The notes below the pieces were generated by a model. The model had not been told where the DNA came from. It made no database searches and saw nothing but the letters and a program-made list of their open reading frames with translations. DNA of 64,000 bases, taken from Aureispira sp. CCB-E (GTDB lineage: Bacteria; Bacteroidota; Bacteroidia; Chitinophagales; Saprospiraceae). The DNA lies in the NCBI RefSeq assembly GCF_031326345.1, contig NZ_CP133671.1, positions 434,001 through 498,000 of the forward strand, written 5' to 3'. Position 1 is the first letter of the stretch; every line of letters starts with the position of its first letter. Both the position numbers and the translations under genes were made by a program. Below are positions 11,959 to 60,086 of the stretch, piece by piece.

Positions 11959-13155
11959 ATGAATTTGACAACAACGACATCTTCTTTTTTTAGGAACCGT
12001 AACATCATACTTTTTTTGTTGGCCAGTATACAGTTTATTTATACCCTTGATTTGATGATTATGATGCCATTAGGTTCTTTTCTAATCACTTCATGGAACA
12101 TAACTACGAATCAGTTTGGTTTACTAATTTCTTCTTTTGCAATCGCAGGCGGTTGCTCCTCCTTTATGGCCGTTTTTTTTATAGAACGTTATGATCGACT
12201 AAAAGCCTTATTTTTAATATTTGCTTGTTTTACAGTAGGTTTGTGGTTGACAAGTTTTGCTCCTAACTATGAGGTTCTCTTATTTTCAAGAGTATTTACT
12301 GGGATTTTTGGAGGTTTATTGGGACCTCTCATTTTAGCAGAAATTAGTTTGCAATTTGAATACTCCAAACGTTCTAAGCCCATCTCAATAACCACGATAG
12401 CCTTGGCATTAGCTTCTATTATAGGGGTACCCATAAGCTTGTATTTAGCGCAATTAGACACTTGGCGATTGCCATTTATTTTGTTAAGTATAATGAGCAC
12501 ATTGGTCGGAGCAATGCTATACTTTATCGACTCTAATAAAAAGCAGGAAATAGACCGAAAGAAAAAAATTAGTTTAACCTCCTTTCTTACAGAATGGAAA
12601 CCTTTATCAGGTTTATTGGTAACCATTAGCGTTTCATTGAGCCAATACACTATTTTTATATATTTAGCACCCTATTTTGTTCATAATCTAGGTATTACAG
12701 AAGAAGAACTTTCTTTGATTTATTTAGTAGGAGGAATTTCTGTAATGGTTTTTGCCCCAATAATAGGCTTTCTTTCCGATCGATATGGCAAACAACGAGT
12801 TTTCATTTTATTATCAACGTTCTTAACAGGACCGATCTATTTGGTGAGCCACTGGTCCTTTTCTTTTTTCCAACACATTTTAATCTTATCCATCTTTTAC
12901 TTTGGATTGGATGCAGGAAGAATGATTCCAATCAACACTATTTTATCAGAACTAACGGGAGAAGAAAACCGAACGGCTTATCTGAATCTTTGTTCTTCTA
13001 TAAAAAAAATGGCCATAGGCTCAGCTGCTTTAATAGGCAGTTTGGTCATACACACATTGCCCAATCACCAATTACTATACTTTGATCAACTGGGTATTAT
13101 TGCACTATTGAGTATAACAATATCAATAGTTTTGGTACTAAGAATAAAAATGTAA
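11959..13155 (+). CDS. major facilitator superfamily transporter (DHA1/AraJ-like)
   Basis: The 398-residue protein is almost entirely hydrophobic, with about 12 predicted helices and a basic central loop (SNKKQEIDRKKK near residue 195). It carries an MFS-type motif in the second half, GFLSDRYGKQRVF near residue 275, and a weaker one in the first half, ERYDRLKALF near residue 76. Such proteins exchange protons for small molecules across the inner membrane, mostly as exporters. It is co-directional with the HMG-CoA reductase-kinase fusion that follows about 130 bases later. It is therefore the natural exporter candidate for that pathway (inference). The spacing leaves room for a separate promoter. 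Confidence 0.85.
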   Translation: MNLTTTTSSFFRNRNIILFLLASIQFIYTLDLMIMMPLGSFLITSWNITTNQFGLLISSFAIAGGCSSFMAVFFIERYDRLKALFLIFACFTVGLWLTSFAPNYEVLLFSRVFTGIFGGLLGPLILAEISLQFEYSKRSKPISITTIALALASIIGVPISLYLAQLDTWRLPFILLSIMSTLVGAMLYFIDSNKKQEIDRKKKISLTSFLTEWKPLSGLLVTISVSLSQYTIFIYLAPYFVHNLGITEEELSLIYLVGGISVMVFAPIIGFLSDRYGKQRVFILLSTFLTGPIYLVSHWSFSFFQHILILSIFYFGLDAGRMIPINTILSELTGEENRTAYLNLCSSIKKMAIGSAALIGSLVIHTLPNHQLLYFDQLGIIALLSITISIVLVLRIKM

Positions 13156-13287
13156 TAGATTCCATTTGGTAGTTTATCTACAACAAACAGTCGGCTAAAA
13201 TCACATTCAAATTGCTAGATCAATACTACTAGTTGAGCATCTTGTGTGTGATAAGGAAAGGTAGTGTTCTGAAGTCAAATTTTGAGA

Positions 13288-16068
13288 ATGTCACAAGTGT
13301 TGAATGAAATAGAGAGAATTAGCGGACTATTAAAAACTTATAACATCATGGAAAATCAAAACACAAAAACGAGAAGGTATTTTCACGAAACTCAATTGCC
13401 TGAAATTTTACTGGCGATAGGAAGTGATCTATTGACAGGATGCATGACCGACTTTTCGGATGATGAACTTAGAATTTACTGTTCTTTGGAGAGTAATTTA
13501 TACATAGGACAGATTGTCGATGCTCTTTATTTTAAACAAACCGATGAAAATTATTGCTTAGAAAGGTTGCGTGTACAAAGAATTCGAAAGAACGAATTAA
13601 CAGAACAACTATCGGTTTCTTTATTATTACCCAACACCGATCAAATAGAACGTTTTCAAAATATTCTAAAAAAAATGACTTTGTTGACGCAGCAAAATAC
13701 CAAAGGGGTGTTTGAATTAAAGACATTTCCTTGGTTTCCCGGAAGTGCTCATTATTCTGAAAGAGCGATAGAGAAAAGACAAGAGTGGCTAGAAAAAACA
13801 ACAGGAATACACATCGATGCTTTGAACGAATCCGTTTTTTTCCCACCGAGCTTATCAGGGAATATAGAAAACTACATTGGAGCTGTTCAGATTCCTGTAG
13901 GAATAGCAGGACCTATAAAAATTAATGGAATGTATGCCAATGGTTATATTCCTGTTCCAATTGCAACTACAGAAGGTGCCTTAGTGAGTTCGATAACAAG
14001 AGGGGCGATGGCAACAAATATGGCAGGAGGAATTGATGTGCAAGTTGTCAAACAGCAAATGGTTCGGGCTCCTGCTTTTTTTTGTGAAGATATTCATGGC
14101 GCTGTCAACTTAGAAAAATGGATTTATGAACACCAAATGGAGATTACTAAGGAAGCAGAAAAAATGTCCTCTGTTGCCAAATTAATTCAAATCATTCCTT
14201 TCTTATTTGGAGATACCTTGCATTTAAAATTTCATTTTAGAACAGGAGATGCTTCTGGGCAAAATATGACAACGGCTTGTACTTGGGCAGCTTGTGAATG
14301 GATCGTATCAAAAATCCAAGAAGATCCTTACATCAAATATCAAAATTATATTATTGATGGCAACTTGGCAGGAGATAAAAAAGTAACGGCTCAAAACTTT
14401 TTGATGGGGCGAGGAGTAACTGTAACGGGAACTTGCTTTGTCTCTGGACAAATATTACGTGATGTGCTGCGAATTACGGCAGACGATTATATCAAAAATT
14501 TTCAGGCGGGAGAAGTGGCAGGATTAAAGTCGGGGATGGTTGGACACAATATTAATTTTGCCAATGTTATTGCAGGTATTTTCACAGCAACAGGACAAGA
14601 CATTGCCAGTGTACACGAATCTTCTTGTGGTATTCTAAAAGCTAGAAAACAAGAAGATGGTATTCTTTTTACAGTCTATTTGCCCTCGCTTACCATTGGT
14701 ACTATTGGAGGAGGAACGGGATTACCAACTCAAAAAGAAAGCCTAAAAATAATGGGTTGTTACGGACAACGACAGCTGTTTAGATTTGCAGAAATTATTG
14801 CCAGTAGTTGTTTAGCTTTAGACTTGTCGACAGGAGCAGCTGTTACCGCTCAAGAATTTGTCAGTGCACACGAACGCTTAGGACGCAATAGAAATCACAA
14901 TCAACTAACCAAGTCAGAGCTCAATATTGCTTTTTTCGATAGCCTATTTACGAGTAGAGAGGTAGTCTCTTTTGAGGCATTGGATTTTTCGGAAAATGAA
15001 GGCTTGGTATCGCATTTAACCAGCAAGTCAAATGAAGGAATAACAGGACTTTTTAAATATGAGTTAACAACCAAAACCCAAACGCCATCAACTTTAGATC
15101 CATCTGAAGAAAAAATTAAAGCTGTCTTAAAATTAAAAGCTTCTCACAAAGAAGCCATCCGAGCAGCTAGCATGGTGATTAAATTATCAGGAGAGGATGT
15201 ATTGCCTGGTTATTTTGAAACGTATCATGCTGTATTTGGTTTTGATAATTGTGATGAGCGAGAAATGGCGTTTTATACCCAAGCCCCTTTGTCTATCAAA
15301 CAGTTTTGTCCTCAGTTGTTGGGGGCAAGACAGGAGTCTCAAAGGCAGGTTTTTGCTTTGTTATTAGAAGATGTAACAACATACTTGCACCCCAAATCTT
15401 CTAATGATGCCTCTATATGGAATAGTTTTAGAATACAGACAGTAGTGAGCGATTTGGCAAAAGTGCACAGTGTCTATTGGAATAATTATGAAGCCATCCC
15501 ACAAACAATGAAAGTCAAACCATTTTTAGAACGGTTTGATTCCTCTGCGACAATTTTATTAAAAGAAGCATTGAAGTTCAATGCTCAAAATCACCCACAT
15601 TTAATTTCTGTAGAGTTGCACCAAAAGCTAGCATATTTCTTAGACAATTTTGATAGACACCTTGATACAATGAATGGTTATCATAAAACTCTAATTCACA
15701 ACGATTGCAATGCTAGAAATATTGGCGTAAGGGAAGAAGGAGAAAAAGCCCGTTTAATTTTATTTGATTGGGAATTGGCGGCATATCATAATCCTCAAAG
15801 AGATTTAATCGAACTTCTTGCTTCGGTATTGCCTGCTAGTGCTAGCAAGGCAGAATTTATCACTTGGGTAGATTATTATTTGCAGGCATTGAGCCGAGAA
15901 ACACAAACAACTTTTGATCGAGAGTTATTTTTAAAAGTGCTAGAAATCAATGCTTATGAATGTGCTTTGATTCGATTAAATTTATATTTATTGGTTCATA
16001 ATATCATGAAGTTGGAATACATTGATCAATTGTATGGGAATGTAATCCGATTTGGAATAGAAGCCTAA
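13288..16068 (+). CDS. HMG-CoA reductase (class I type) fused to an APH/choline-kinase-like kinase domain
   Basis: The 926-residue protein has three parts. Residues 1-145 are an N-terminal region of unclear type, faintly PilZ-like. Residues about 150-560 are HMG-CoA reductase, with the class I catalytic set: Glu229 in TTEGAL, Asp321 in GDASGQNM, Lys364 in GDKKVTAQN, His528 in AHERLGRNRN, and the glycine-rich GTIGGGTGLPTQ. Residues about 585-926 look like an aminoglycoside/choline-type kinase, with a probable ATP lysine in AVLKLKAS, the HxDxxxxN loop HNDCNARN (804-811) and a metal Asp827 in LFDWELA. HMG-CoA reductase makes mevalonate; the kinase may phosphorylate mevalonate or a downstream product (inference). 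The ATG at 13288 was preferred to a TTG six bases earlier; 13348 is another option. The next gene starts 11 bases downstream. Confidence 0.85.
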   Translation: MSQVLNEIERISGLLKTYNIMENQNTKTRRYFHETQLPEILLAIGSDLLTGCMTDFSDDELRIYCSLESNLYIGQIVDALYFKQTDENYCLERLRVQRIRKNELTEQLSVSLLLPNTDQIERFQNILKKMTLLTQQNTKGVFELKTFPWFPGSAHYSERAIEKRQEWLEKTTGIHIDALNESVFFPPSLSGNIENYIGAVQIPVGIAGPIKINGMYANGYIPVPIATTEGALVSSITRGAMATNMAGGIDVQVVKQQMVRAPAFFCEDIHGAVNLEKWIYEHQMEITKEAEKMSSVAKLIQIIPFLFGDTLHLKFHFRTGDASGQNMTTACTWAACEWIVSKIQEDPYIKYQNYIIDGNLAGDKKVTAQNFLMGRGVTVTGTCFVSGQILRDVLRITADDYIKNFQAGEVAGLKSGMVGHNINFANVIAGIFTATGQDIASVHESSCGILKARKQEDGILFTVYLPSLTIGTIGGGTGLPTQKESLKIMGCYGQRQLFRFAEIIASSCLALDLSTGAAVTAQEFVSAHERLGRNRNHNQLTKSELNIAFFDSLFTSREVVSFEALDFSENEGLVSHLTSKSNEGITGLFKYELTTKTQTPSTLDPSEEKIKAVLKLKASHKEAIRAASMVIKLSGEDVLPGYFETYHAVFGFDNCDEREMAFYTQAPLSIKQFCPQLLGARQESQRQVFALLLEDVTTYLHPKSSNDASIWNSFRIQTVVSDLAKVHSVYWNNYEAIPQTMKVKPFLERFDSSATILLKEALKFNAQNHPHLISVELHQKLAYFLDNFDRHLDTMNGYHKTLIHNDCNARNIGVREEGEKARLILFDWELAAYHNPQRDLIELLASVLPASASKAEFITWVDYYLQALSRETQTTFDRELFLKVLEINAYECALIRLNLYLLVHNIMKLEYIDQLYGNVIRFGIEA

Positions 16069-16079
16069 TTATATCCCTT

Positions 16080-17453
16080 ATGAAAATACCAAATACAACC
16101 ATAGAAGACCAGTTGTTGGTTTTGTTGAGTTATAATAACTTAACACCAAGCGAAAAAACGAAAATAGAACAACTTATTCCTTTGATCTCGTCTTGGGAGT
16201 CCTTTTATAACTTGGCTCGATTTAATAGGATCATACCTCATATCTACCGCATTCTGAAGCAAGAGAACTGGTGGCAACAGATACCAGACCATGTTCAAGA
16301 TAAAATTAGTGAAAGAGCTACTGAAATTCAACAGATTAATGCAGCAAGATTACAGAAGGCAAAGCCAATCTTAAAACGCTTTCAAGAAGCAGGAATTGAG
16401 TTTGTGATTTTAAAAGGCGTTTTATTTGCAGAGACTATTTATCAAAATAGTTTTTATAAAAGAATGAATGACATTGATATTTTGGTTCGAAAAAAATCGA
16501 TTCCCAACATTTTGCAAATATTTGAAGAAGAAGGCTTGTTGTGTATTGGAGAGCGCATTGGAGGAAACCCAGAGAAACAACTCAAAACATCTCATCATTT
16601 GCCCCCATTCATTGATCGAGAGTTACAATGTATGTTTGGGATACAGTGGGGGTTAAAATCTCCTTTAACCCCTTATCGATTAGATTATGAGGCAATATGG
16701 TCAAGAGTGCGCCCTTTTTCTTTTTTAGGCTTAAATGCCTTGCAGATGTGCCCAGAAGATAATTTTCATCATATTTGTGTGCATTTGGGCTATTATAAAA
16801 ATGGGCTTAGAGATGTCTTTGATATTTATAACTTGTTACGAAAATATGAAGCTAATTTTGATTGGCAATTATTAGAAACCGAAGTGAAAAAGGCAGGAAC
16901 AGAACGTTTGATGTATTTTGCGCTTTCGTTGACCAATCCATTATATTCTAACCCAACTGTGAGTGAGTTGATAAAAAAAATGGAACCCCAAACTTCTGCT
17001 TATTACAAAAAAGGTGTTGCAGAGAAAACAAAAAATTTGCATACTCAATTGAGAATTGGAACCTCCTATCCAACAGAAGTAGAAAAGGCAATTTCAGAGT
17101 TTAATGCCACCAATCAGTTCAAGGAAAAATCTTATTATTTTTGGTTAACTTGGAAATATTTGCTTTTTCCTCCAATGGAAGAGGCTAAGAAGATGGCTGC
17201 TAATTTATACCCTAATGCTAGACAAGGTGTTTGGATTTGGTGGACTCGATCTTATCGAATGTTAGAGTACATTGCGAGTGAAATTAGTTGGCTGTTGCTG
17301 TTTGCATTGATGTTTAAAACATGGTACGATTTACTTCAATGTGGTTGGACCAATTTGTTTTTTAAGTCCTCAAAAATTTCTACCAAAGAAAAAATGAACA
17401 CCTTAGGTATATCAGAAGAAGCATTAGAACGCATCAAAAAAAGAATTCAATAA
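16080..17453 (+). CDS. nucleotidyltransferase-family protein (NTP_transf_5-like)
   Basis: The 457-residue protein has a helical N-terminal region. The hallmark of the uncharacterised nucleotidyltransferase family follows: LKGVLFAETIY (Lys112-Gly113), then MNDIDILV, with metal-binding Asp131 and Asp133. A hydrophobic segment, WLLLFALMFKTWYDLL (about residues 398-413), may be membrane-associated. Members of this family often lie in polysaccharide and peptide-modification clusters, but their substrate is unknown. It begins 11 bases after the HMG-CoA reductase-kinase gene, and its stop overlaps the next start by one base (TAATG). The four genes are therefore almost certainly one transcript. Confidence 0.75.
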   Translation: MKIPNTTIEDQLLVLLSYNNLTPSEKTKIEQLIPLISSWESFYNLARFNRIIPHIYRILKQENWWQQIPDHVQDKISERATEIQQINAARLQKAKPILKRFQEAGIEFVILKGVLFAETIYQNSFYKRMNDIDILVRKKSIPNILQIFEEEGLLCIGERIGGNPEKQLKTSHHLPPFIDRELQCMFGIQWGLKSPLTPYRLDYEAIWSRVRPFSFLGLNALQMCPEDNFHHICVHLGYYKNGLRDVFDIYNLLRKYEANFDWQLLETEVKKAGTERLMYFALSLTNPLYSNPTVSELIKKMEPQTSAYYKKGVAEKTKNLHTQLRIGTSYPTEVEKAISEFNATNQFKEKSYYFWLTWKYLLFPPMEEAKKMAANLYPNARQGVWIWWTRSYRMLEYIASEISWLLLFALMFKTWYDLLQCGWTNLFFKSSKISTKEKMNTLGISEEALERIKKRIQ

Positions 17454-18079
17454 TGAAAGAACCACAATGGATTTGTATTACAGGAACCGATGGTGCTGGT
17501 AAATCTAGTTTAATAGATATTTTATTGCAAGACACCATTTTGTTTAACGGCAAAAAAGTCAAAGAAGTCACAATTTGGGATTTGTTTTATTTACCCAAGG
17601 AAGAGCAACATCTTTCTATTTCTTCTAAGCAAGCTGTTGATTGGTATTTAAAAAGTCTTTCTCCTCAAAGTCGTACGTTCTTTTTATTACACTGCATGGC
17701 ACAAGCATTAGAAATTGCCAGAAGAGAAGCAGTAGAGATTGCTTTGATTAATGCCTATTGGTACAAGTATCTAGCAACAGAAGTTGCTTATGATGGAAAC
17801 TTAGCCCATCGGCTTAGCTTGACAACTTCTTTTCCGAAGCCAGATCTTGTTTTTTCTTTAAATGTTTCTGTCAAAACAGCAGGACAACGAAAGAAACACT
17901 ATTCAACCTTTGAAAGTGGATTTCCTGAACAGGTCAATACAAAGCAATTTATGAATTTTCAACATAAAGTACAAGCAGCTTATCAGCAGATTATGACTAC
18001 AGTAGAGCATATTGCTTTGGATGGAGAACTACCTTTGTTAGAATTAAAAAAGCAGATTCTAGCGCAACTAAAATTTTAA
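17453..18079 (+). CDS. thymidylate-kinase-like P-loop kinase A
   Basis: The 208-residue protein opens with a clear Walker A, ITGTDGAGKSSL (residues 9-20), in the sequence context of thymidylate-kinase-like nucleotide kinases. The substrate-side Asp-Arg motif of true thymidylate kinases is not seen; the equivalent stretch reads ALINAYWYKYLA. The substrate is thus probably not dTMP. The start overlaps the stop of the nucleotidyltransferase gene by one base, a sign of translational coupling. A related kinase follows three bases after its stop. It probably works on a small molecule of the same pathway (inference). Confidence 0.7.
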   Translation: MKEPQWICITGTDGAGKSSLIDILLQDTILFNGKKVKEVTIWDLFYLPKEEQHLSISSKQAVDWYLKSLSPQSRTFFLLHCMAQALEIARREAVEIALINAYWYKYLATEVAYDGNLAHRLSLTTSFPKPDLVFSLNVSVKTAGQRKKHYSTFESGFPEQVNTKQFMNFQHKVQAAYQQIMTTVEHIALDGELPLLELKKQILAQLKF

Positions 18080-18082
18080 ATA

Positions 18083-18898
18083 ATGAAACCGTATACTATT
18101 ACAATAACAGGAATTGATGGTTGTGGAAAAAGCACTGTTATTCATCAATTGATCAAAAAACAAAAAGAAGTTCCAGAAGCCTATCAAGTATTGGCATGTA
18201 CTAATTTTCACGATACGCCCAATGCTCCTTTTTCTGAGTTGTCTCAAGGCATGGATGCCTTATCCCAATATGCTGATATTCGAAAAGATCCAACGATTAA
18301 GTATGTTGCTTTATATTTAAAAATGACCTTGTTTGGGGCAATAGAGCAATTTTTTGCTGATTATTATCAACCCAATGTGTTAATTACAGAACGCCATCCA
18401 CTAGTAGGGAGTTTGGTTTATGGTAATTTATACCTACAAATGAACTCCAAATTGAATCTACAAGAAAATTCTACTTGGAATGAATCATTGTTAGAAGAAC
18501 AACAAATTCCTTGGGCAAGTATTTTACATTGGTTTAAATTAGAAAATAAACGGCTTGGAAGAAGGATAGATTTTTGGGAATTGCCAGCATACTTAGTAAA
18601 AATTCAGCAACAGCAACTTTCAGAACTAATTCCTTCTTTAACAACTCTTTTTAGAACAACCTTACCGCAAAAGATCATTCATTTCCAAATTGAAGAAAAT
18701 ATTGCTGCTACAAGAGTAGGGCAACACAAACCCAAAGAAATACATGAAAGTGAACAGCATTTGATATATCTTCATCAAGCTTATTTAAAGGCATTAAAAT
18801 ATATGGAAAAACAAGGTGTAGCAGTAACTTATTTAGTGGTACAAGGGAAAGATCCCAATGACCTGATGAACGATGTATGGAGAGCAATTTATCCATAA
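18083..18898 (+). CDS. thymidylate-kinase-like P-loop kinase B
   Basis: The 271-residue protein has a Walker A, GIDGCGKSTVI (residues 10-20), and a TERHPLVG segment (Glu103-Arg104) where thymidylate kinases carry their Asp-Arg motif. It is longer than a housekeeping thymidylate kinase (about 210 residues). It is only distantly similar to the preceding gene, so the two are unlikely to be a recent duplication. It is the last gene of the tight four-gene run and is followed by a hairpin. A role as a kinase of a non-canonical substrate in the HMG-CoA reductase cluster is an inference. Confidence 0.7.
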   Translation: MKPYTITITGIDGCGKSTVIHQLIKKQKEVPEAYQVLACTNFHDTPNAPFSELSQGMDALSQYADIRKDPTIKYVALYLKMTLFGAIEQFFADYYQPNVLITERHPLVGSLVYGNLYLQMNSKLNLQENSTWNESLLEEQQIPWASILHWFKLENKRLGRRIDFWELPAYLVKIQQQQLSELIPSLTTLFRTTLPQKIIHFQIEENIAATRVGQHKPKEIHESEQHLIYLHQAYLKALKYMEKQGVAVTYLVVQGKDPNDLMNDVWRAIYP

Positions 18899-18928: not shown

Positions 18929-18954
18929 AAGGTCAAAATCTAAATTTTGACCTT
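18929..18954 (+). terminator. hairpin after the HMG-CoA reductase-kinase operon
   Basis: AAGGTCAAAAT (18929-18939) pairs perfectly with 18944-18954 around a 4-base loop. Only a broken T-rich stretch follows, so termination may be modest. It stands 30 bases after the last kinase gene. Confidence 0.55.
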
Positions 18955-52148: not shown

Positions 52149-52682
52149 CCTACTTTAATTTGAGAAAAAAAAAGACCAAATTAAGTAAATCTAAAAAAAA
52201 ATAATTTGTTGATTTGCCTAATGTTTTTATTTCGTGTCGATTAAAAGTTGTGAGGAACTTTACTACTTCGCTATTTTTATGGATGATGAATCTTAAAAAA
52301 TATCATTATCAGCACTCAATATCTTATTTTCGATTTTACGAAGCAGAATTACACTAAAAAAAAGAAACACATTACATTGTTTAACAAAATAGCAGGATAT
52401 AAGGTTCAATTCTACACAATTATAATTTTCTAGATTAAATTTTTCGACCATTTTTGAAAAATGAATAGACAAAGCAAGCATTTGACTACTAAAATAGGAT
52501 ATATCTATTGTTAGCTAGAAAATCTTTGTCTTAGAAATAAGAGAATCAGCGAAAATTAAATATTTTTGGAGTCATTTTGTTAAAGTCCACTCTTTTTCAG
52601 AGCATTACCAATGCCCTAAAAATGGACCTAGATGAGGCGAGTCTACAAAAGACCGTTCGTCTTAATAACCAAGCAGTTTTTT
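52149..52682 (+). promoter_or_regulatory. ruvA-sprA intergenic region with a TATTTTTG box
   Basis: The region is about 530 bases long and A+T-rich. TATTTTTG (52561-52568) matches TAnnTTTG, about 70 bases before the first and 115 before the second possible sprA ATG. A TTG lies at 52526-52528, too far away for a normal promoter. No gene is visible in 52149-52560. Confidence 0.4.
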
Positions 52683-55600
52683 ATGAATTTCAAGACACTG
52701 AATTTGTGCTTTTGGGTAGTATGTACCTATACAGTAGCAGGATGGAGTACAGACTATAACACTCTCAATTATTTAGAGGAAGATTTTTGGGCTTCGCCAA
52801 CCTTTTTTATGCCAGACACCTTGCCTCCAATACAGGATAGACCAGAGGTAGATGTATCGAACAAACAAAATCCGTTTGATTTAAAGGACCCCAAAGTAAT
52901 CGAAAAAAATGTAGAGTATGATGCAGAAAGTAATCTGTATATCATTACTGAAACGATCAACGGATCTTACTATCGATCTCCAATGTACTTAACTCCCGAT
53001 GAATACTTTAAGTGGAGGGCAGAACAGGAGGACAAAGCCTATTTTAAGGAGTTATCTCAAATGAATAAAGTAGGAAAAGTTGGAGGTGATCCTGTTGCGC
53101 CTTATCAAGATCGAATTAGCAATAGCTTGGTTGAGCGTCTGTTTTGTGGTTCAACAATTGATGTTCGACCTCAAGGTAATATAGGTTTGACATTTGGTTT
53201 TGATTATCAAAGAATCGCAAATCCTATCTTGACTGAACAACAGCAACAACAAGGTGGTTTTGATTTTGATATGAATATTCAGCTGAGTGTGGTCGGTAAG
53301 ATTGGGCAAAAACTAAAGCTGTCTTTTAACTATAACACACAAGCTACCTTTGATTTTGATCGCCAAATTAAAGTAGAATATTTGAGTGATACAGAATGTT
53401 CAGAAGATGACATTATCAAAAAAATAGAAGCAGGTAACGTTAGTTTTCCATTGCGTTCTTCTCTTATACAGGGGCGCCAAAATTTATTTGGCTTTCGCAC
53501 AGATTTGCAATTTGGTCGTTTAAAAATGTCTTTGGTTGCTTCTCAAAGTCAAACCAAACGAAAAGAAATTCAAATCAAAGGTGGTTCTCAATTGCAAGAT
53601 TTTGAGGTAACAGCAGATAATTATGATGAAAATCGACATTTCTTCCTTTCTCATTACAACCGTGCTACTTACGAAGAGAATTTAACGACGCTACCTCAGA
53701 TCAATACGCTGTTTAATATTACCAAAATAGAAGTATGGGTAACCAATGATCGAAATGTAACCGAAGGCGTTCGAGATGTCGTGGCTTATGCAGATTTGGG
53801 AGAAACGGATCCTAGCAAAATGGTTAGTGGCAACCAATACAATCCTTCGACCGCATCTGAACAAGGGATTGATTTAAGAAACAATCGTCTACCAGATAAT
53901 GATGCCAATGATTTATATAAAGAGTTGTTGGCTAGTGAAAATGGGACTCCTTCGGGGAACGCTCGTGGGCTTCAAACATCTATTAGTGCTTTACAAGGTG
54001 CCCCGTTTAATATGAGTGATGCAGAAGACTTTGTGAAAATCAGAGCCCGTAAATTGTCGCCCTCAGAGTTTACCTATGATCCTAAACTTGGGTTCGTATC
54101 TGTCAATGTGTCGATCAAGCCAACAGATGTAGTCGCAGTGGCTTATCAATATACTTATAATGGTCAGATATACCAAGTGGGGGAGTTTGCACAAGATTTG
54201 CCTTTGAATGCTGACACTTTGAATGTAATGCATTTAAAATTATTAAAGGGAGTTAGAACAAGAGTTGATTTGCCAATTTGGGACTTAATGATGAAAAACA
54301 TTTATTCCTTAGGAGCCTATCAAATTAATCAAGAAGACTTTATGCTGGATGTCTTTTATCAAGACCCAGGAGGAGGAGAGAAGCGATTTTTGCCAGAGGG
54401 ACCACCAGAAGGAAAGCCCTTGATTACGATGTTGAACTTAGATAATCTGAACAGAGCAAGAGACCCTATTCCTGATGGACAGTTTGACTATATCCCAGGG
54501 ACAACGATTTTGCCTAGAAACGGACGTGTCATTTTTCCAGTTTTAGAGCCTTTTGGAAGTTCGTTGGCTGGAGAGTTTTATCGAACACCTGGTGATCCTG
54601 CAAGTTTACATCCTATTTCTCAAAAATATCTATACAACCAGCTCTACGATTCTACAATTACAAGAGCAAGAGAATTTCCAGAGTTTAATCGATACATTAT
54701 ACGAGGTCGTTACAAGTCTAGTGTTTCTTCTGAAATTTCCTTGGGAGGATTTAATATTCCGAAAGGGTCGGTAGTGGTAACAGCAGGTGGACGTACATTG
54801 ACAGAAGGTACGGATTATACGATTGATTATAATTTGGGAAGAATTAAAATTTTGAATGAGGCTTATTTGAATTCTGGACAGCCAGTTCGAGTTGCTTTTG
54901 AGGACAATGCTACCTTTGGGTTTAATCAACAAGGCTTTTTTGGAGCAAGGTTTGATTACTTTGTTAATAAAGATCTGAATATTGGAGCTACCTTTTTGCA
55001 CTTAAACGAACGCCCCTTTACACAGAAGGTAAATTATGGGGATGACCCTATTTCGAATAGTATTTATGGGTTTGACGTACAATATAGCAGCGAAGCACCT
55101 TGGTTAACTCGTTTGATAGATAAAATACCATTGATTAGCACCAAGGCAATGTCAAATATTTCGTTTTCAGCAGAATTTGCACATTTAATTCCTGGTTCTC
55201 CAGATATTATCAATCAAGCTAATGACGAAGGAGGAGTTGTTTTTATTGATGATTTTGAGGGATCAACGAGCAATTTTAATTTGTCTATTCCAAGTTTAAA
55301 TTGGGTGTTGGCAAGTACGCCAAGAAGTGACCTTTCTAATCCTTTGTTCCCAGAAGCAAGTTTGTCAAATGATTTGGAATACAATAAAAACAGAGCAAGA
55401 ATAGCATGGTATAACTTGGAACCTGCTTTAAATTTTACCTCTGGTTCTAAGAGTATTTATACACGCGAAATTCAACAACAAGAGGTTTTTCAAAATGTTC
55501 AAAATACAGGTTTAACCTATACTGGACTACGTACATTTGATTTGTCTTATAGACCGAAGGAACGTGGACCTTATAACTTTGATACGACAAACATAGATCC

Positions 55601-58600
55601 AGCTACAGGAGAATTTACCAACCCTGCTGATCGTTGGGGAGGTGTTATGCGTAGTTTGACAAATACTGATTTTGAGGCTTCTAATATTGAGTTTGTCGAA
55701 ATGTGGGTCATGAGTCCTTTTAAAGAAGGTTATGGTGGTAATGGTGGAGACTTGTATATTGAGTTGGGAGATGTTTCGGAAGATATCTTAAAAGATTCTC
55801 GATTGTTCTTTGAGAATGGGATACCAGCCGCCAATTCTAATACTAGTACAGATGAAACTGTCTGGTCAAGAATTCCAAGAACACAAGCTGTGACACGTGC
55901 TTTTGACAATGATCCTGCTATTAGAGACCAACAAGATATTGGTTTGGATGGCTTTGATGATGAAGGAGAACGTCAGCATTATGCTTCTTATCTAAGTGCC
56001 ATGCAACGAATTGTTGCACCAGGTATTTTCCAAGGCATTCAAGATGACCCAGCAGGAGATAACTTCCGTTTTTATAGAGATGCCTTTTATGATGATCCTG
56101 CCAACATTCCTTCAGGAAACTTAGAAGACCCAACTTTGTATCGTTATATTAAATATAACAACCCACAGGGTAACTCTTCTAATGATCAGAGTACCAATAA
56201 TCAGGCTATTTCAACTTCTACCAACATTCCAGATACAGAGGATTTAAACAAAGATAATACGTTAAACGAGCAAGAGTCGTACTATCGTTATCATATTCCA
56301 ATTCGCAGAGAAAATGGTGATGAAATGGCATTTACTCAGTATACCATTGATTCTGTTCGTATGAACTATGATGGCCCTAATGGACCAGAGACAGTATATT
56401 GGTATCAGTTGAAAATCCCTGTGGATAAATTTACCAGTCGTGTCGGAGGAATTTCTGATTTCCGTGCCATTCGATTTATGAGAATGTATATGACAGGGTT
56501 TGAAGAGAAAACGACATTGCGTATGGCTCGTCTAGATTTGATTCGCAATCAATGGAGACGTTATATCAGAGATTTGACCTTGCCAGGTTTGATTATTCCT
56601 CCAGAAGATCCAAGTAACACAACATTTGATGTATTTGCAGTAAATATTGAAGAAAATGGTTCTAAAATTCCATTTAATTATGTGTTGCCTCCTGGTGTAT
56701 CTCGTGAACAAGTGATTGGTTCTGTTACCAATGCACAACAAAATGAACAATCGCAAGCGTTGAGAGTTTGTAACCTAGAAGATGGAGATGCTAGAGGAAT
56801 TTATAAAATCGTAGACTTGGATATGCGGGTTTATGAACGTTTAAAAATGTATGTTCATGCAGAAAATTTGAGAGGAGAGCAAGAAAATGATCCTGGAGAC
56901 ATGACCATGTTTATGCGAATAGGAAGTGATTTTGAAAATAACTACTATGAGTATGAAATTCCTTTGACAATGTCAGACGAAAGTGGAGGAATCAAAGACG
57001 ATCAAAATATTTGGTTGGAAGAAAATCAATTTGATTTCCCACTCGAATTACTACGTCAAGTAAAAGTCGATAGAGAAGTGAAAGGAATTGCCTTGAGTGA
57101 TTTGTATGAGTCATTTGATGGAAATAATATTATTAGAGTAAAAGGTAACCCAACACTTGGGCAAGTAAAAGGGGTAATGGTTGGGGTACGCAACCGCAAA
57201 GACGATGGTTTGGCACGTTGTGCAGAGATTTGGATTAATGAGTTGCGTTTGACTGGTTTTGACGAGCGAGGTGGATTTGCTGGTTTGGCGAGATTGGATG
57301 TTCAACTAGCCGATTTTGGACAATTGACGGCATCGGGAAGTTACCAATCCATTGGTTTTGGAAATATCGACCAAAGTGTCGGAGAGCGTAGTCGTGAGGA
57401 GTTGATACAATACGATATTTCAGGTTCTTTGAAATTGGACAAGTTCTTTCCTGAAAAATGGAAATTAAGCATTCCTTTTTATGCGCAGTATTCTCAAGAG
57501 ATTAGTACGCCAGAGTTTGATCCATATCAACTGGATGTTCCTTTAGAACAACGTTTGGCTTCTATTTCTGATTTGAGAAGACGAGATTCTATTCGACAAG
57601 CAGCGAGAACCATACGAACGATTTCTAGTTTTAACTTTACAAATGTTCGAAAGGGAAGAACGTCTAAATTTGTCCCATTACCAACAGATATTTCTAATTT
57701 CTCCTTTACGTATGCACAATCGAGTAATATTTTCCGCTCACCAATAATTGAACGAGAAGAACGGACGGAGCATAGAGGAGTTTTGGATTATAATTACTCT
57801 CCTGGAGTTAAACCGATTTATCCATTTAAAAAGGCGATTAATAAAATAAAAAATAAAAATGCTGTAAAATGGTTGGGACTCATTCGAGAAATTAACATTA
57901 ATCCATTGCCTAATGCCATTGGCTTTAGAAATGAATTGAAGCGTAATTTTGGGGAAACAACGTATCGATTTACAGATGCAACTACTAGTACTTATTACGA
58001 TAAGAAGTTTATTTGGGATAGAGCTTATAATTTGCAATGGAATATCTTTAAGTCCTTGCGTTTGAATTACACGGCTACGAATAACGCAATTATTGATGAA
58101 CCAGAAGGTAGAATTGATGAGCAAGTAGAAAGGGATGTTTTGTGGAACAATATCAAACGTTTTGGTCGAACTAAGAACTACCAACATAATGTCAGTGCTA
58201 GCTATACGTTACCTCTAAAATATATACCTGCACTCGACTGGGTAACTGTTAAAGGGCAGTATTCAGCAACCTACAGTTGGACTGCTGCCACCTTGGGTTT
58301 GGATAGCTTAGGAAATGTTATTCAAAACTCTCAAAAACGTCAAGTTACAGGAGATTTCCAATTTAAGAAATTGTATGACAAGTGGAATTATCTGAAAAAG
58401 ATAGGAACTCCAAAACGTCCTTCTGCTGGTGGTAAAGGCAAAGAGAAGAAACCAGAAAAAATTAAATTACCTGAAAAGAAAAAATATCCACCTCTAAGAG
58501 AGATTGAAGATCCTGAGAAGCGTGCAGAGGAAAAGGAAAAACGAAAAATGGAACGCAAGGCTTGGCGAGAAGAAGTCAAGAAAATTAGAGAAAAAAGGCA

Positions 58601-60086
58601 ACCTAGTGGCGCAGAGCGTGCTCTAATTCGTCCATTAATGTTGTTGCAACGAGCGAGGGTGACTTACAATGAAAACTTTACGACAGTGCTTCCTGGTTTT
58701 ATGGGAACCTCCAAATATGTTGGTCAAGACTATACGGGAACGAATACCAACCCAGGTCCACGACCAGGATGGGACTTTATTGCGGGGTGGCAGCCAGATC
58801 GTACTTGGTTGGACAAAGCCGCAGAGAGTGGCTGGATTTCAACAAGTATTTATCAAAATCAACCTTTGATACAAACGCATACTCAAACTTATTCAGCAAA
58901 AGTCACTTTGGAACCCATTCAAGGATTGAAAATTGATGTTGATTTGGATAAGACGATTACAGAGAACTATCAAGAGTTGTTCAAGGTAGAAGATCAGTTT
59001 AGCAATGACGAATTTTCTCATTTGAATGGTATGTTGAGTGGTACTGTAAAAATGACCTACTTGCCTTTAGCTACTTTCTTTGATAAGGAGGGAACCAAAG
59101 GAACGAACTCTTCGGTCAACTTTGAAACCTTTGAGAGCAATCGAATTATTATTTCTCAACGCAAAGGGACAGGAACGCATGATGACACAGAAACCAATCC
59201 TGGCTTTACAGAAGGATATGGTCGTTATCAACAAGATGTTTTGATTCCTGCTTTCTTGGCGGCTTATACGGGGCGCGATGCTAATAATATAGAGTTAGGA
59301 GATATCCGTAATACGATGCCTCTGCCAAACTGGAAATTGACCTATAATGGCTTGTCAAAAATGCCTGGCTTAGATAAAATTTTCTCTAGTTTTAGCTTAA
59401 CTCATGGCTACAAATCAACCTTAACAGTCAATCAATTTGTTACGGATTTGGATTTTGCGTCTACGTTGGCACCAACAGGTACCAATGGAAAAGATGTTAA
59501 TAGTCAAAACTATTATTCTAGCTTTGAAATCCCTAATTTGGTGATTTCTGAATCATTCAATCCTTTGATTGGGGTAGACATGCGTTTCAAAAATGATTTG
59601 TCTTTAAATTTCCAATATAAAACAAGTAGAAATTTGTCTATGAGTTTTATTGACTATCAATTGAGTGAACAAAATACAACTGATGTAACGGTTGGTTTTG
59701 GATGGAAATTCAAAAACTTTAAACCAATTGAGTTCTTTAAGAATAAGAAAAAGAAAGAAAAGGAAAAAGAAAAAATCAAGTTGGGTGAAATGGATTTCAA
59801 TTTTGATTTTGGAAAAACCATTGCTAAAGATGAGTTGAACTTGAAATGTGATGTTTCTTTCCGTGATGACAAAACGGTCAATCATATCTTAGATCAAGAT
59901 CAATCGGTTGCTACGCGAGGAATGCAAACGATTCGTATTTCACCATCGTTGGAATGGATTCCAAATAATCGCTTGACATTCCGTCTGTTCTTTGATTATA
60001 CGCAAACGATACCAGCTGTATCAACGTCTTTCCCTATTACTAGTTTGAAAGGTGGTTTGACGATCCGCTTCTCATTGTCACAATAA
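52683..60086 (+). CDS. sprA: SprA, outer-membrane translocon of the type IX secretion system / gliding motility
   Basis: SprA is the giant outer-membrane barrel through which folded cargo leaves in type IX secretion, and gliding depends on it. This 2467-residue protein has an N-terminal signal segment (LCFWVVCTYTVAGWS) and a plug-like N-terminal region. Family-typical stretches include SLVERLFCGSTIDVRPQGNI, LSFNYNTQATFDFDRQIK, VVFIDDFEGSTSNFN and WINELRLTGFDERGG. The end, LTIRFSLSQ, is a barrel strand. Length is in the normal range. A Lys/Glu/Pro-rich insertion at about residues 1905-1985 stands out. The ATG at 52683 gives a neat signal peptide; an ATG at 52632 would add 17 basic residues. 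A strong terminator follows. Confidence 0.95.
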   Translation: MNFKTLNLCFWVVCTYTVAGWSTDYNTLNYLEEDFWASPTFFMPDTLPPIQDRPEVDVSNKQNPFDLKDPKVIEKNVEYDAESNLYIITETINGSYYRSPMYLTPDEYFKWRAEQEDKAYFKELSQMNKVGKVGGDPVAPYQDRISNSLVERLFCGSTIDVRPQGNIGLTFGFDYQRIANPILTEQQQQQGGFDFDMNIQLSVVGKIGQKLKLSFNYNTQATFDFDRQIKVEYLSDTECSEDDIIKKIEAGNVSFPLRSSLIQGRQNLFGFRTDLQFGRLKMSLVASQSQTKRKEIQIKGGSQLQDFEVTADNYDENRHFFLSHYNRATYEENLTTLPQINTLFNITKIEVWVTNDRNVTEGVRDVVAYADLGETDPSKMVSGNQYNPSTASEQGIDLRNNRLPDNDANDLYKELLASENGTPSGNARGLQTSISALQGAPFNMSDAEDFVKIRARKLSPSEFTYDPKLGFVSVNVSIKPTDVVAVAYQYTYNGQIYQVGEFAQDLPLNADTLNVMHLKLLKGVRTRVDLPIWDLMMKNIYSLGAYQINQEDFMLDVFYQDPGGGEKRFLPEGPPEGKPLITMLNLDNLNRARDPIPDGQFDYIPGTTILPRNGRVIFPVLEPFGSSLAGEFYRTPGDPASLHPISQKYLYNQLYDSTITRAREFPEFNRYIIRGRYKSSVSSEISLGGFNIPKGSVVVTAGGRTLTEGTDYTIDYNLGRIKILNEAYLNSGQPVRVAFEDNATFGFNQQGFFGARFDYFVNKDLNIGATFLHLNERPFTQKVNYGDDPISNSIYGFDVQYSSEAPWLTRLIDKIPLISTKAMSNISFSAEFAHLIPGSPDIINQANDEGGVVFIDDFEGSTSNFNLSIPSLNWVLASTPRSDLSNPLFPEASLSNDLEYNKNRARIAWYNLEPALNFTSGSKSIYTREIQQQEVFQNVQNTGLTYTGLRTFDLSYRPKERGPYNFDTTNIDPATGEFTNPADRWGGVMRSLTNTDFEASNIEFVEMWVMSPFKEGYGGNGGDLYIELGDVSEDILKDSRLFFENGIPAANSNTSTDETVWSRIPRTQAVTRAFDNDPAIRDQQDIGLDGFDDEGERQHYASYLSAMQRIVAPGIFQGIQDDPAGDNFRFYRDAFYDDPANIPSGNLEDPTLYRYIKYNNPQGNSSNDQSTNNQAISTSTNIPDTEDLNKDNTLNEQESYYRYHIPIRRENGDEMAFTQYTIDSVRMNYDGPNGPETVYWYQLKIPVDKFTSRVGGISDFRAIRFMRMYMTGFEEKTTLRMARLDLIRNQWRRYIRDLTLPGLIIPPEDPSNTTFDVFAVNIEENGSKIPFNYVLPPGVSREQVIGSVTNAQQNEQSQALRVCNLEDGDARGIYKIVDLDMRVYERLKMYVHAENLRGEQENDPGDMTMFMRIGSDFENNYYEYEIPLTMSDESGGIKDDQNIWLEENQFDFPLELLRQVKVDREVKGIALSDLYESFDGNNIIRVKGNPTLGQVKGVMVGVRNRKDDGLARCAEIWINELRLTGFDERGGFAGLARLDVQLADFGQLTASGSYQSIGFGNIDQSVGERSREELIQYDISGSLKLDKFFPEKWKLSIPFYAQYSQEISTPEFDPYQLDVPLEQRLASISDLRRRDSIRQAARTIRTISSFNFTNVRKGRTSKFVPLPTDISNFSFTYAQSSNIFRSPIIEREERTEHRGVLDYNYSPGVKPIYPFKKAINKIKNKNAVKWLGLIREININPLPNAIGFRNELKRNFGETTYRFTDATTSTYYDKKFIWDRAYNLQWNIFKSLRLNYTATNNAIIDEPEGRIDEQVERDVLWNNIKRFGRTKNYQHNVSASYTLPLKYIPALDWVTVKGQYSATYSWTAATLGLDSLGNVIQNSQKRQVTGDFQFKKLYDKWNYLKKIGTPKRPSAGGKGKEKKPEKIKLPEKKKYPPLREIEDPEKRAEEKEKRKMERKAWREEVKKIREKRQPSGAERALIRPLMLLQRARVTYNENFTTVLPGFMGTSKYVGQDYTGTNTNPGPRPGWDFIAGWQPDRTWLDKAAESGWISTSIYQNQPLIQTHTQTYSAKVTLEPIQGLKIDVDLDKTITENYQELFKVEDQFSNDEFSHLNGMLSGTVKMTYLPLATFFDKEGTKGTNSSVNFETFESNRIIISQRKGTGTHDDTETNPGFTEGYGRYQQDVLIPAFLAAYTGRDANNIELGDIRNTMPLPNWKLTYNGLSKMPGLDKIFSSFSLTHGYKSTLTVNQFVTDLDFASTLAPTGTNGKDVNSQNYYSSFEIPNLVISESFNPLIGVDMRFKNDLSLNFQYKTSRNLSMSFIDYQLSEQNTTDVTVGFGWKFKNFKPIEFFKNKKKKEKEKEKIKLGEMDFNFDFGKTIAKDELNLKCDVSFRDDKTVNHILDQDQSVATRGMQTIRISPSLEWIPNNRLTFRLFFDYTQTIPAVSTSFPITSLKGGLTIRFSLSQ

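Follow-up and report, generated by a model that had tools for sequence, protein, structure and literature searches.

The window analysed here, a stretch of 64,000 nucleotides corresponding to positions 434001-498000 of contig 1 of Aureispira sp. CCB-E (genome size 7.39 Mb), carries a group of four genes encoding a protein in which a reductase domain of the 3-hydroxy-3-methylglutaryl-CoA (HMG-CoA) reductase (HMGR) fold is fused to a kinase (hereafter the fusion), a nucleotidyltransferase-fold protein (NT5) and two P-loop proteins (TK1 and TK2). A preliminary description, made from the sequence alone, had listed five genes, the fifth being an MFS exporter ahead of the other four. The open reading frame (ORF) calls confirmed the five ORFs at their places (Table 1), the last four being tightly spaced on one strand with gaps of 11, -1 and 3 bases. 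The exporter could not be retained as a member of the pathway: 126 bases separate the end of its gene from the TTG start of the fusion (132 from an ATG at 13288), and blastp at E ≤ 1e-3 gave no match to its product among the ORFs of the 80 relative loci described below, one of which, L122, holds a different MFS-like ORF (named by eye). Because of this gap and of the lack of matches, the MFS gene was kept out of the conserved core. The evidence for a terminator-like hairpin 3' of TK2 is weak, as six such sites were found in the region compared with 4.4 in shuffled sequences.

Table 1. Positions, in the window, of the fusion operon and its flanking features
Feature	Positions	Strand	Support
MFS transporter (outside the conserved core)	11959-13155	+	Pfam MFS_1, E 1e-41
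HMGR-fold reductase fused to EcKL/APH-type kinase, 928 aa	13282-16068	+	Pfam HMG-CoA_red and EcKL
NT5, NTP_transf_5 nucleotidyltransferase-fold protein, 457 aa	16080-17453	+	Pfam NTP_transf_5, E 3e-44
TK1, thymidylate-kinase-like P-loop protein, 208 aa	17453-18079	+	Pfam Thymidylate_kin, 28.2 bits
TK2, P-loop kinase-like protein with ERHP motif, 271 aa	18083-18898	+	Pfam Thymidylate_kin, 23.5 bits
Terminator-like hairpin 3' of TK2	18929-18954		Consensus scan only, near chance level

Distribution of the fusion

A 10-row kinase alignment was run against the genome collection; from the 256 related stretches that it matched, the 80 best loci were retained (L numbers below; genomes have G numbers). 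ORFs of at least 80 aa from these loci and from the window were clustered, shorter ORFs not being called. The 80 fusion ORFs compared hereafter come from 79 of the 80 loci and from the window, L092 having been dropped as it contains a run of Ns and no called fusion ORF. The records include named strains of Kordia, Niastella, Polaribacter, Aestuariivivens and Phaeodactylibacter, an uncultured Aquimarina isolate and many metagenome bins; two of the 80 have titles outside Bacteroidota (L051, Sericytochromatia; L086, Pseudobdellovibrio) and are perhaps misnamed bins.

The fusion is rare. When 395 genomes sampled from Bacteroidia, the class of the window, were searched with the kinase-domain alignment at E ≤ 1e-8, kinase relatives were found in 11: ten carry the HMGR-kinase fusion (in pieces in G201) and one, G096, has a stand-alone kinase and no fusion. 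Seven other members of the genus were compared (six of them draft assemblies of at least 50 contigs): five matched the HMGR part only and two gave no match, which suggests that the operon is accessory in this genus.

The reductase domain retains catalytic residues and has an altered HMG pocket

The HMG-CoA_red domain of Pfam spans residues 162-535 of the window fusion (E 5e-104), and only HMGRs were found among the Foldseek matches listed. In human HMGR, the residues of the HMG pocket include Ser684, Asp690, Lys691, Lys692, Asp767, Glu559, Lys735, Asn755, Leu853 and His866, as given in the accessible part of the review PMC7503714. The 80 fusions were aligned with the human (1dq8) and archaeal (6hr7) enzymes. 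The class I catalytic residues Lys691, Asp767 and His866, as well as Asp690, Lys692 and Asn755, are retained in 80/80 fusions, and Glu559 is present in all 76 that are readable at this position (four are gapped). However, Ser684, Lys735 and Leu853 are not retained in any fusion: Ser684 is replaced by Glu (73/80) or Asp (7/80), Lys735 is never Lys (Arg once) and Leu853 is Thr in every case; the neighbouring residue His752 is likewise replaced, by Asn, in 80/80. The window fusion has Asp, Ala and Thr at the three pocket positions; the canonical human, plant and archaeal HMGRs have Ser at 684 and Lys at 735. Related genomes also encode stand-alone HMGR-like proteins (13 rows, one of them from the host genome; 10 readable and three gapped at Glu559). 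These too lack Ser684 and Lys735, but have kept His752 and, mostly, Leu853. When scored with TIGR00533 (cut-off 441.8 bits; no canonical class I control was run), the window fusion reached 294.9 bits and six other fusions 236-276 bits, all seven being below the cut-off.

As the catalytic residues are retained but those of the HMG pocket are replaced, we infer that the reductase domain is a competent thioester reductase acting on a substrate other than HMG-CoA. Compared with class I HMGRs (human 1dq8/1dqa, Methanothermococcus 6hr7), the fusion is distinguished by these three replacements, by the fused kinase and by its presence in some hosts that have no credible route through mevalonate. A different explanation, close to that of the preliminary description, is that the reductase still makes mevalonate and the kinase its phosphate, which would then go not into isoprenoid synthesis but onto another molecule, as its head group or side chain. 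The conserved class I catalytic residues, the invariant Asp690, Lys692 and Asn755 and the E value of the HMG-CoA_red match all fit this explanation, which we nevertheless regard as unlikely given the replacement of Ser684, Lys735 and Leu853 throughout the 80 sequences and the distance of the seven tested fusions from the NCBI HMG-CoA reductase cut-off. The "mevalonate-derived" part of that description found no support, in view of the altered pocket and of hosts that have GcpE and no credible mevalonate-diphosphate decarboxylase (MVD; see below). Bacterial HMGR homologues tend to be read as markers of the mevalonate pathway, a reading to which the fusion family would be a recurrent exception in genomes that seemingly do not convert mevalonate to isopentenyl diphosphate. 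A Flavobacterium HMGR was tested in PMC13370337, according to the accessible part of that article.

Two further observations concern HMGR-like sequences of the host. The window fusion has an N-terminal extension of ~146 residues (window 13282-13720) that is not found in the other fusions of the alignment, has low model confidence and gave no Pfam match. In addition, a second HMGR-like gene, with a product of 515 aa that has a PF25653 N-terminal domain, lies at ~508.4-509.9 kb of contig 1 (L025:10387-11934); it has Glu for Ser684 and Val for Lys735, and similar frames are present in five of the seven other genomes of the genus.

The fusion occurs in hosts with apparently different isoprenoid routes

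Nineteen genomes were tested for GcpE and MVD; 18 of these are fusion genomes, G096 being excluded from that count. Eight of the 18 have GcpE, of the methylerythritol phosphate (MEP) pathway, and no MVD match above 23 bits, and thus seem to be without a credible known route from mevalonate to isopentenyl diphosphate (IPP). The other ten, including the host of the window, have an MVD-like match of at least 102 bits and no GcpE (11 of all 19 genomes, with matches of 102-180 bits); the host match, at 161 bits, is below the cut-off of 171.35. HMG-CoA synthase (PF08540) was matched in three of the 19 genomes, and the host genome, though it has an MVD-like gene, gave no match. The host also has a separate class II HMGR (TIGR00532, 260.6 vs 259.95 bits) beside a type 2 IPP-isomerase-like gene (by eye).

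We considered that the fusion might supply ordinary isoprenoid synthesis as an additional HMG-CoA reductase with mevalonate kinase activity, as the ten fusion genomes with MVD-like genes and no GcpE would allow. This explanation was dropped as very improbable, since the eight fusion genomes with GcpE have no credible MVD and the host already has its class II HMGR.

Domains of the kinase, NT5, TK1 and TK2 proteins

The EcKL (ecdysteroid kinase-like) domain occupies residues 672-874 of the fusion (Pfam, E 4e-13; 49.9 vs a cut-off of 22 bits), and the kinase motifs H[ND]DxNxRN and [YF]DWE are found in 73/80 and 78/80 fusions, respectively. Searches with the kinase part returned generic aminoglycoside phosphotransferase (APH), protein-kinase and choline-kinase matches among solved sequences, with no clue to the substrate, and a single weak Streptomyces match (24% identity) in the plasmid collection. 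Other EcKL/APH-type small-molecule kinases are known, such as the corramycin phosphotransferase 8agy; here the domain is fused behind an HMGR-fold domain.

NT5 scores well over the NTP_transf_5 (PF14907) cut-off (152.1 vs 31.2 bits), and the structure model of a relative, from L050, has the nucleotidyltransferase fold. TK1 and TK2 had been described as nucleoside-monophosphate-kinase-like, a label that proved loose for TK2, which stays under the Thymidylate_kin cut-off of 27 bits that TK1 passes. Both miss the cut-off of the dTMP kinase model TIGR00041 (83.25 bits; 43.7 for TK1 and 29.7 for TK2). The P-loop of TK1 is present in 14 of 15 aligned rows, the L059 ORF beginning after it, and [ND]xYxxKY presumably lies at the position of the TMK DR motif. 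In TK2, the P-loop and the ERHP motif are conserved in 13/13 rows; against solved sequences the best E value was only 0.35.

Two putative activation modules that do not co-occur in the samples searched

The fusion, NT5, TK1 and TK2 genes form a tight, co-directional and conserved unit. The order and strand of NT5-TK1-TK2 are the same in all 12 loci that have the three genes, window included (gaps are larger in L055 and L065), and in the class sample the NT5 subfamily was found in only three of 395 genomes (the host, G430 and G438; E ≤ 1e-30), each time beside the fusion. The conserved neighbourhood, the absence of which in relatives the preliminary description had named as the finding that would speak against it, is thus present, and its reading of the last four genes as a unit was borne out. 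Close genes on the same strand are common in bacteria, and the four could be neighbours by chance; given the 12/12 conservation of order and the constant association of NT5 with the fusion, we attach next to no weight to this explanation.

Of the 80 fusions, 48 have a CarS-like CTP transferase gene within 9 kb and 16 have NT5/TK genes (the window included; L062 and L081 were counted on the basis of TK2); no fusion has both, and the remaining 16 have neither. The CarS-like gene, identified as PF01864, lies downstream of the fusion and on the same strand in 48/48 loci, the distance between the two ranging from -148 to 122 bases; the [KR]T[WYL]RG pattern is missing in five of the 48 ORFs. If the loci were independent, the hypergeometric P value of the zero overlap would be 2e-8, related loci not being independent draws. 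In the class sample, the CarS subfamily was found in six genomes (G070, G155, G201, G275, G298 and G412; E ≤ 1e-10); all nine genomes with a module carry the fusion and none has both modules, the tenth fusion genome, G125, having a run of Ns after the fusion and neither module. A quick tree of the fusions implies at least three module changes, and both module types are present in both kinds of host, GcpE-type and MVD-like-type. The CarS-like and NT5-TK1-TK2 modules are therefore mutually exclusive in the samples searched, and their conservation and exchange make nucleotide activation, as proposed from the sequence, the best reading of the step.

NTP_transf_5 proteins are used in peptide clusters. 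NT5, TK1 and TK2 might accordingly modify a peptide, a tRNA or another macromolecule, like MenT-like or antibiotic nucleotidyltransferases, the fusion just adding a side chain. The module nonetheless stands where other loci have a CTP transferase gene of the membrane-lipid type, and we hold this explanation to be improbable; as ORFs below 80 aa were not called, a precursor peptide may have escaped notice.

Neighbouring genes in relatives and a proposed pathway

The neighbours of the fusion, named from Pfam or by eye, define three types of neighbourhood. In type I (e.g., Kordia), the fusion is accompanied by CarS and a CDP-alcohol phosphatidyltransferase. Type II (e.g., Polaribacter filamentus) comprises a PlsC-like acyltransferase, the fusion, CarS, a phosphoenolpyruvate (PEP)-synthase-like dikinase, a UbiA-like protein, a methyltransferase and a desaturase. 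In type III, a dikinase, NT5, TK1 and TK2 are found with the fusion, on the same strand or facing it. The CDP-alcohol phosphatidyltransferase family is near the fusion in 28 loci; Pfam was run on one member, and the full motif is present in 29/29 ORFs. The UbiA-like proteins of the relatives gave no Pfam match and were named by eye from Asp-rich motifs. The His motif is missing in one of 35 full-length ORFs resembling pyruvate phosphate dikinase (PPDK). In the Aquimarina locus L068, a PF00155 alpha-oxoamine-synthase-like gene overlaps the start of the operon, the downstream genes of which overlap by 4-11 bases with one gap of 1 base. This gene lies just ahead of a PPDK-NT5-TK1-TK2-fusion series in L068:2214-11047 (4-base overlap) and L121:1595-10251 (35 bases apart), a position that hints at an amino-ketone or sphingoid-like precursor.

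From these observations we propose a pathway of four steps. The HMGR-fold domain, as its residues suggest, would use NAD(P)H to reduce an acyl thioester to an alcohol, the thioester probably being other than HMG-CoA; the fused EcKL/APH-type kinase, by its motifs, would phosphorylate this alcohol; the alcohol phosphate would then be activated by NT5, TK1 and TK2 in the window and by the CarS-like CTP transferase elsewhere, as the exchange of modules suggests; and the activated group may finally be incorporated into a polar lipid or lipid-like product. This last step is the least secure, and is proposed because relatives add a CDP-alcohol phosphatidyltransferase, a UbiA-like protein, a PlsC-like acyltransferase, desaturases or the alpha-oxoamine-synthase-like gene. 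We consider the case evenly balanced that the operon encodes such a biosynthetic pathway, small and patchily distributed in Bacteroidota, from reductase-kinase through alcohol activation to a polar lipid or lipid-like product. Somewhat more tentative, and short of even, is the proposal that the fusion represents an unrecognised class of HMGR-fold acyl-thioester reductase-kinases that do not use HMG-CoA and lead to a new nucleotide-activated alcohol and polar lipid, with two unrelated modules interchanging. This rare and recurrently conserved gene set suggests a pathway that is undescribed and not of the terpene type, perhaps with a lipid product.

Several points weigh against this reading. The altered pocket could still bind HMG-CoA in another way, and the comparison was with three canonical enzymes only (human, archaeal and plant). 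In NT5, the DxD motif is retained and the conserved G.QWG[LI]K strand, where we place the third residue by inference, has no acidic residue. Nucleotidyltransferases usually have a third acidic residue; as NT5 thus seems to lack it, the protein may not transfer nucleotides. Sixteen of the 80 fusions have neither module within 9 kb, and just six of these are on contigs of less than 7 kb. On the quick tree, the window fusion has a branch of 3.87 and its placement is unsure, and the nearest identities to the window proteins are low (fusion 34%, NT5 32%, TK1 41%, TK2 28%). In a second, phylum-wide sample of 395 genomes, searched with the kinase at E ≤ 1e-20, the fusion was found in the host genome only. 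The window operon has no CarS-like or lipid gene, so that the lipid context is weakest there, the lipid theme coming from the genes of relatives. Genes with PPDK_N/PEP-utilizers domains are near the fusion in just 25/48 CarS loci and 9/16 NT5/TK loci; the host genome has three PPDK_N matches, and in the two regions checked neither belongs to the PPDK family of the cluster. Finally, the type of host pathway is partly inferred, because other GHMP proteins, too, score on the MVD model (it found matches in eight of 14 control genomes, in two of them over the cut-off) and its cut-off was passed by only three of the 19 genomes.

Relation to described systems

The proposed pathway resembles the lipid routes with CDP-archaeol synthase (CarS) and CDP-alcohol phosphatidyltransferase through the PF01864 gene of relatives and the phosphatidyltransferase nearby, and differs from them in the window, where NT5-TK1-TK2 takes the place of CarS. 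Archaeal-type ether lipid genes have been reported in bacteria of the same superphylum, FCB (Fibrobacteres-Chlorobi-Bacteroidetes); in the accessible part of PMC7852524, this set of archaeal-lipid-like genes comprises the GGGP and DGGGP synthases without CarS, and an HMGR-kinase fusion is not described. The archaeal ether-lipid route as such was dropped, substrate evidence being lacking. The system of PMC12419801, which has a GHMP kinase according to the available part of the article, is different from the fusion operon. No description of an HMGR together with CarS or with PEP synthase and CDP-alcohol transferase, of an HMGR fused to a kinase of this type, or of PF14907 clusters was found in the open-licence full-text literature, other journals not being searchable; within these limits, the preliminary description was right that the genes match no described cluster. 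The fusion would mark an undescribed pathway in the named strains, the Aquimarina isolate and the bins listed above, and since two unrelated modules replace each other, the activation step can be tested directly.

Other observations

Stand-alone kinases related to that of the fusion are found in L048:5563-12544 and L049:6500-13437 with DUF3419, AMP-ligase-like (by eye) and PPDK-like genes, the DUF3419 domain being assigned by Pfam for L048. We take the DUF3419 gene to be BtaA-like; this set is perhaps a sister pathway. A radical-SAM-like gene (by eye) is present in L056:5708-6880, L059:19166-20362, L109 and L125, three of the four having a conserved lipoprotein-like gene as well. A conserved SOUL-like small protein (by eye) is encoded near the fusions of L105 (7323-7937), L106, L108, L112 and L117. 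Elsewhere in the window, positions 52632-60086 hold a very long ORF of 2484 aa.
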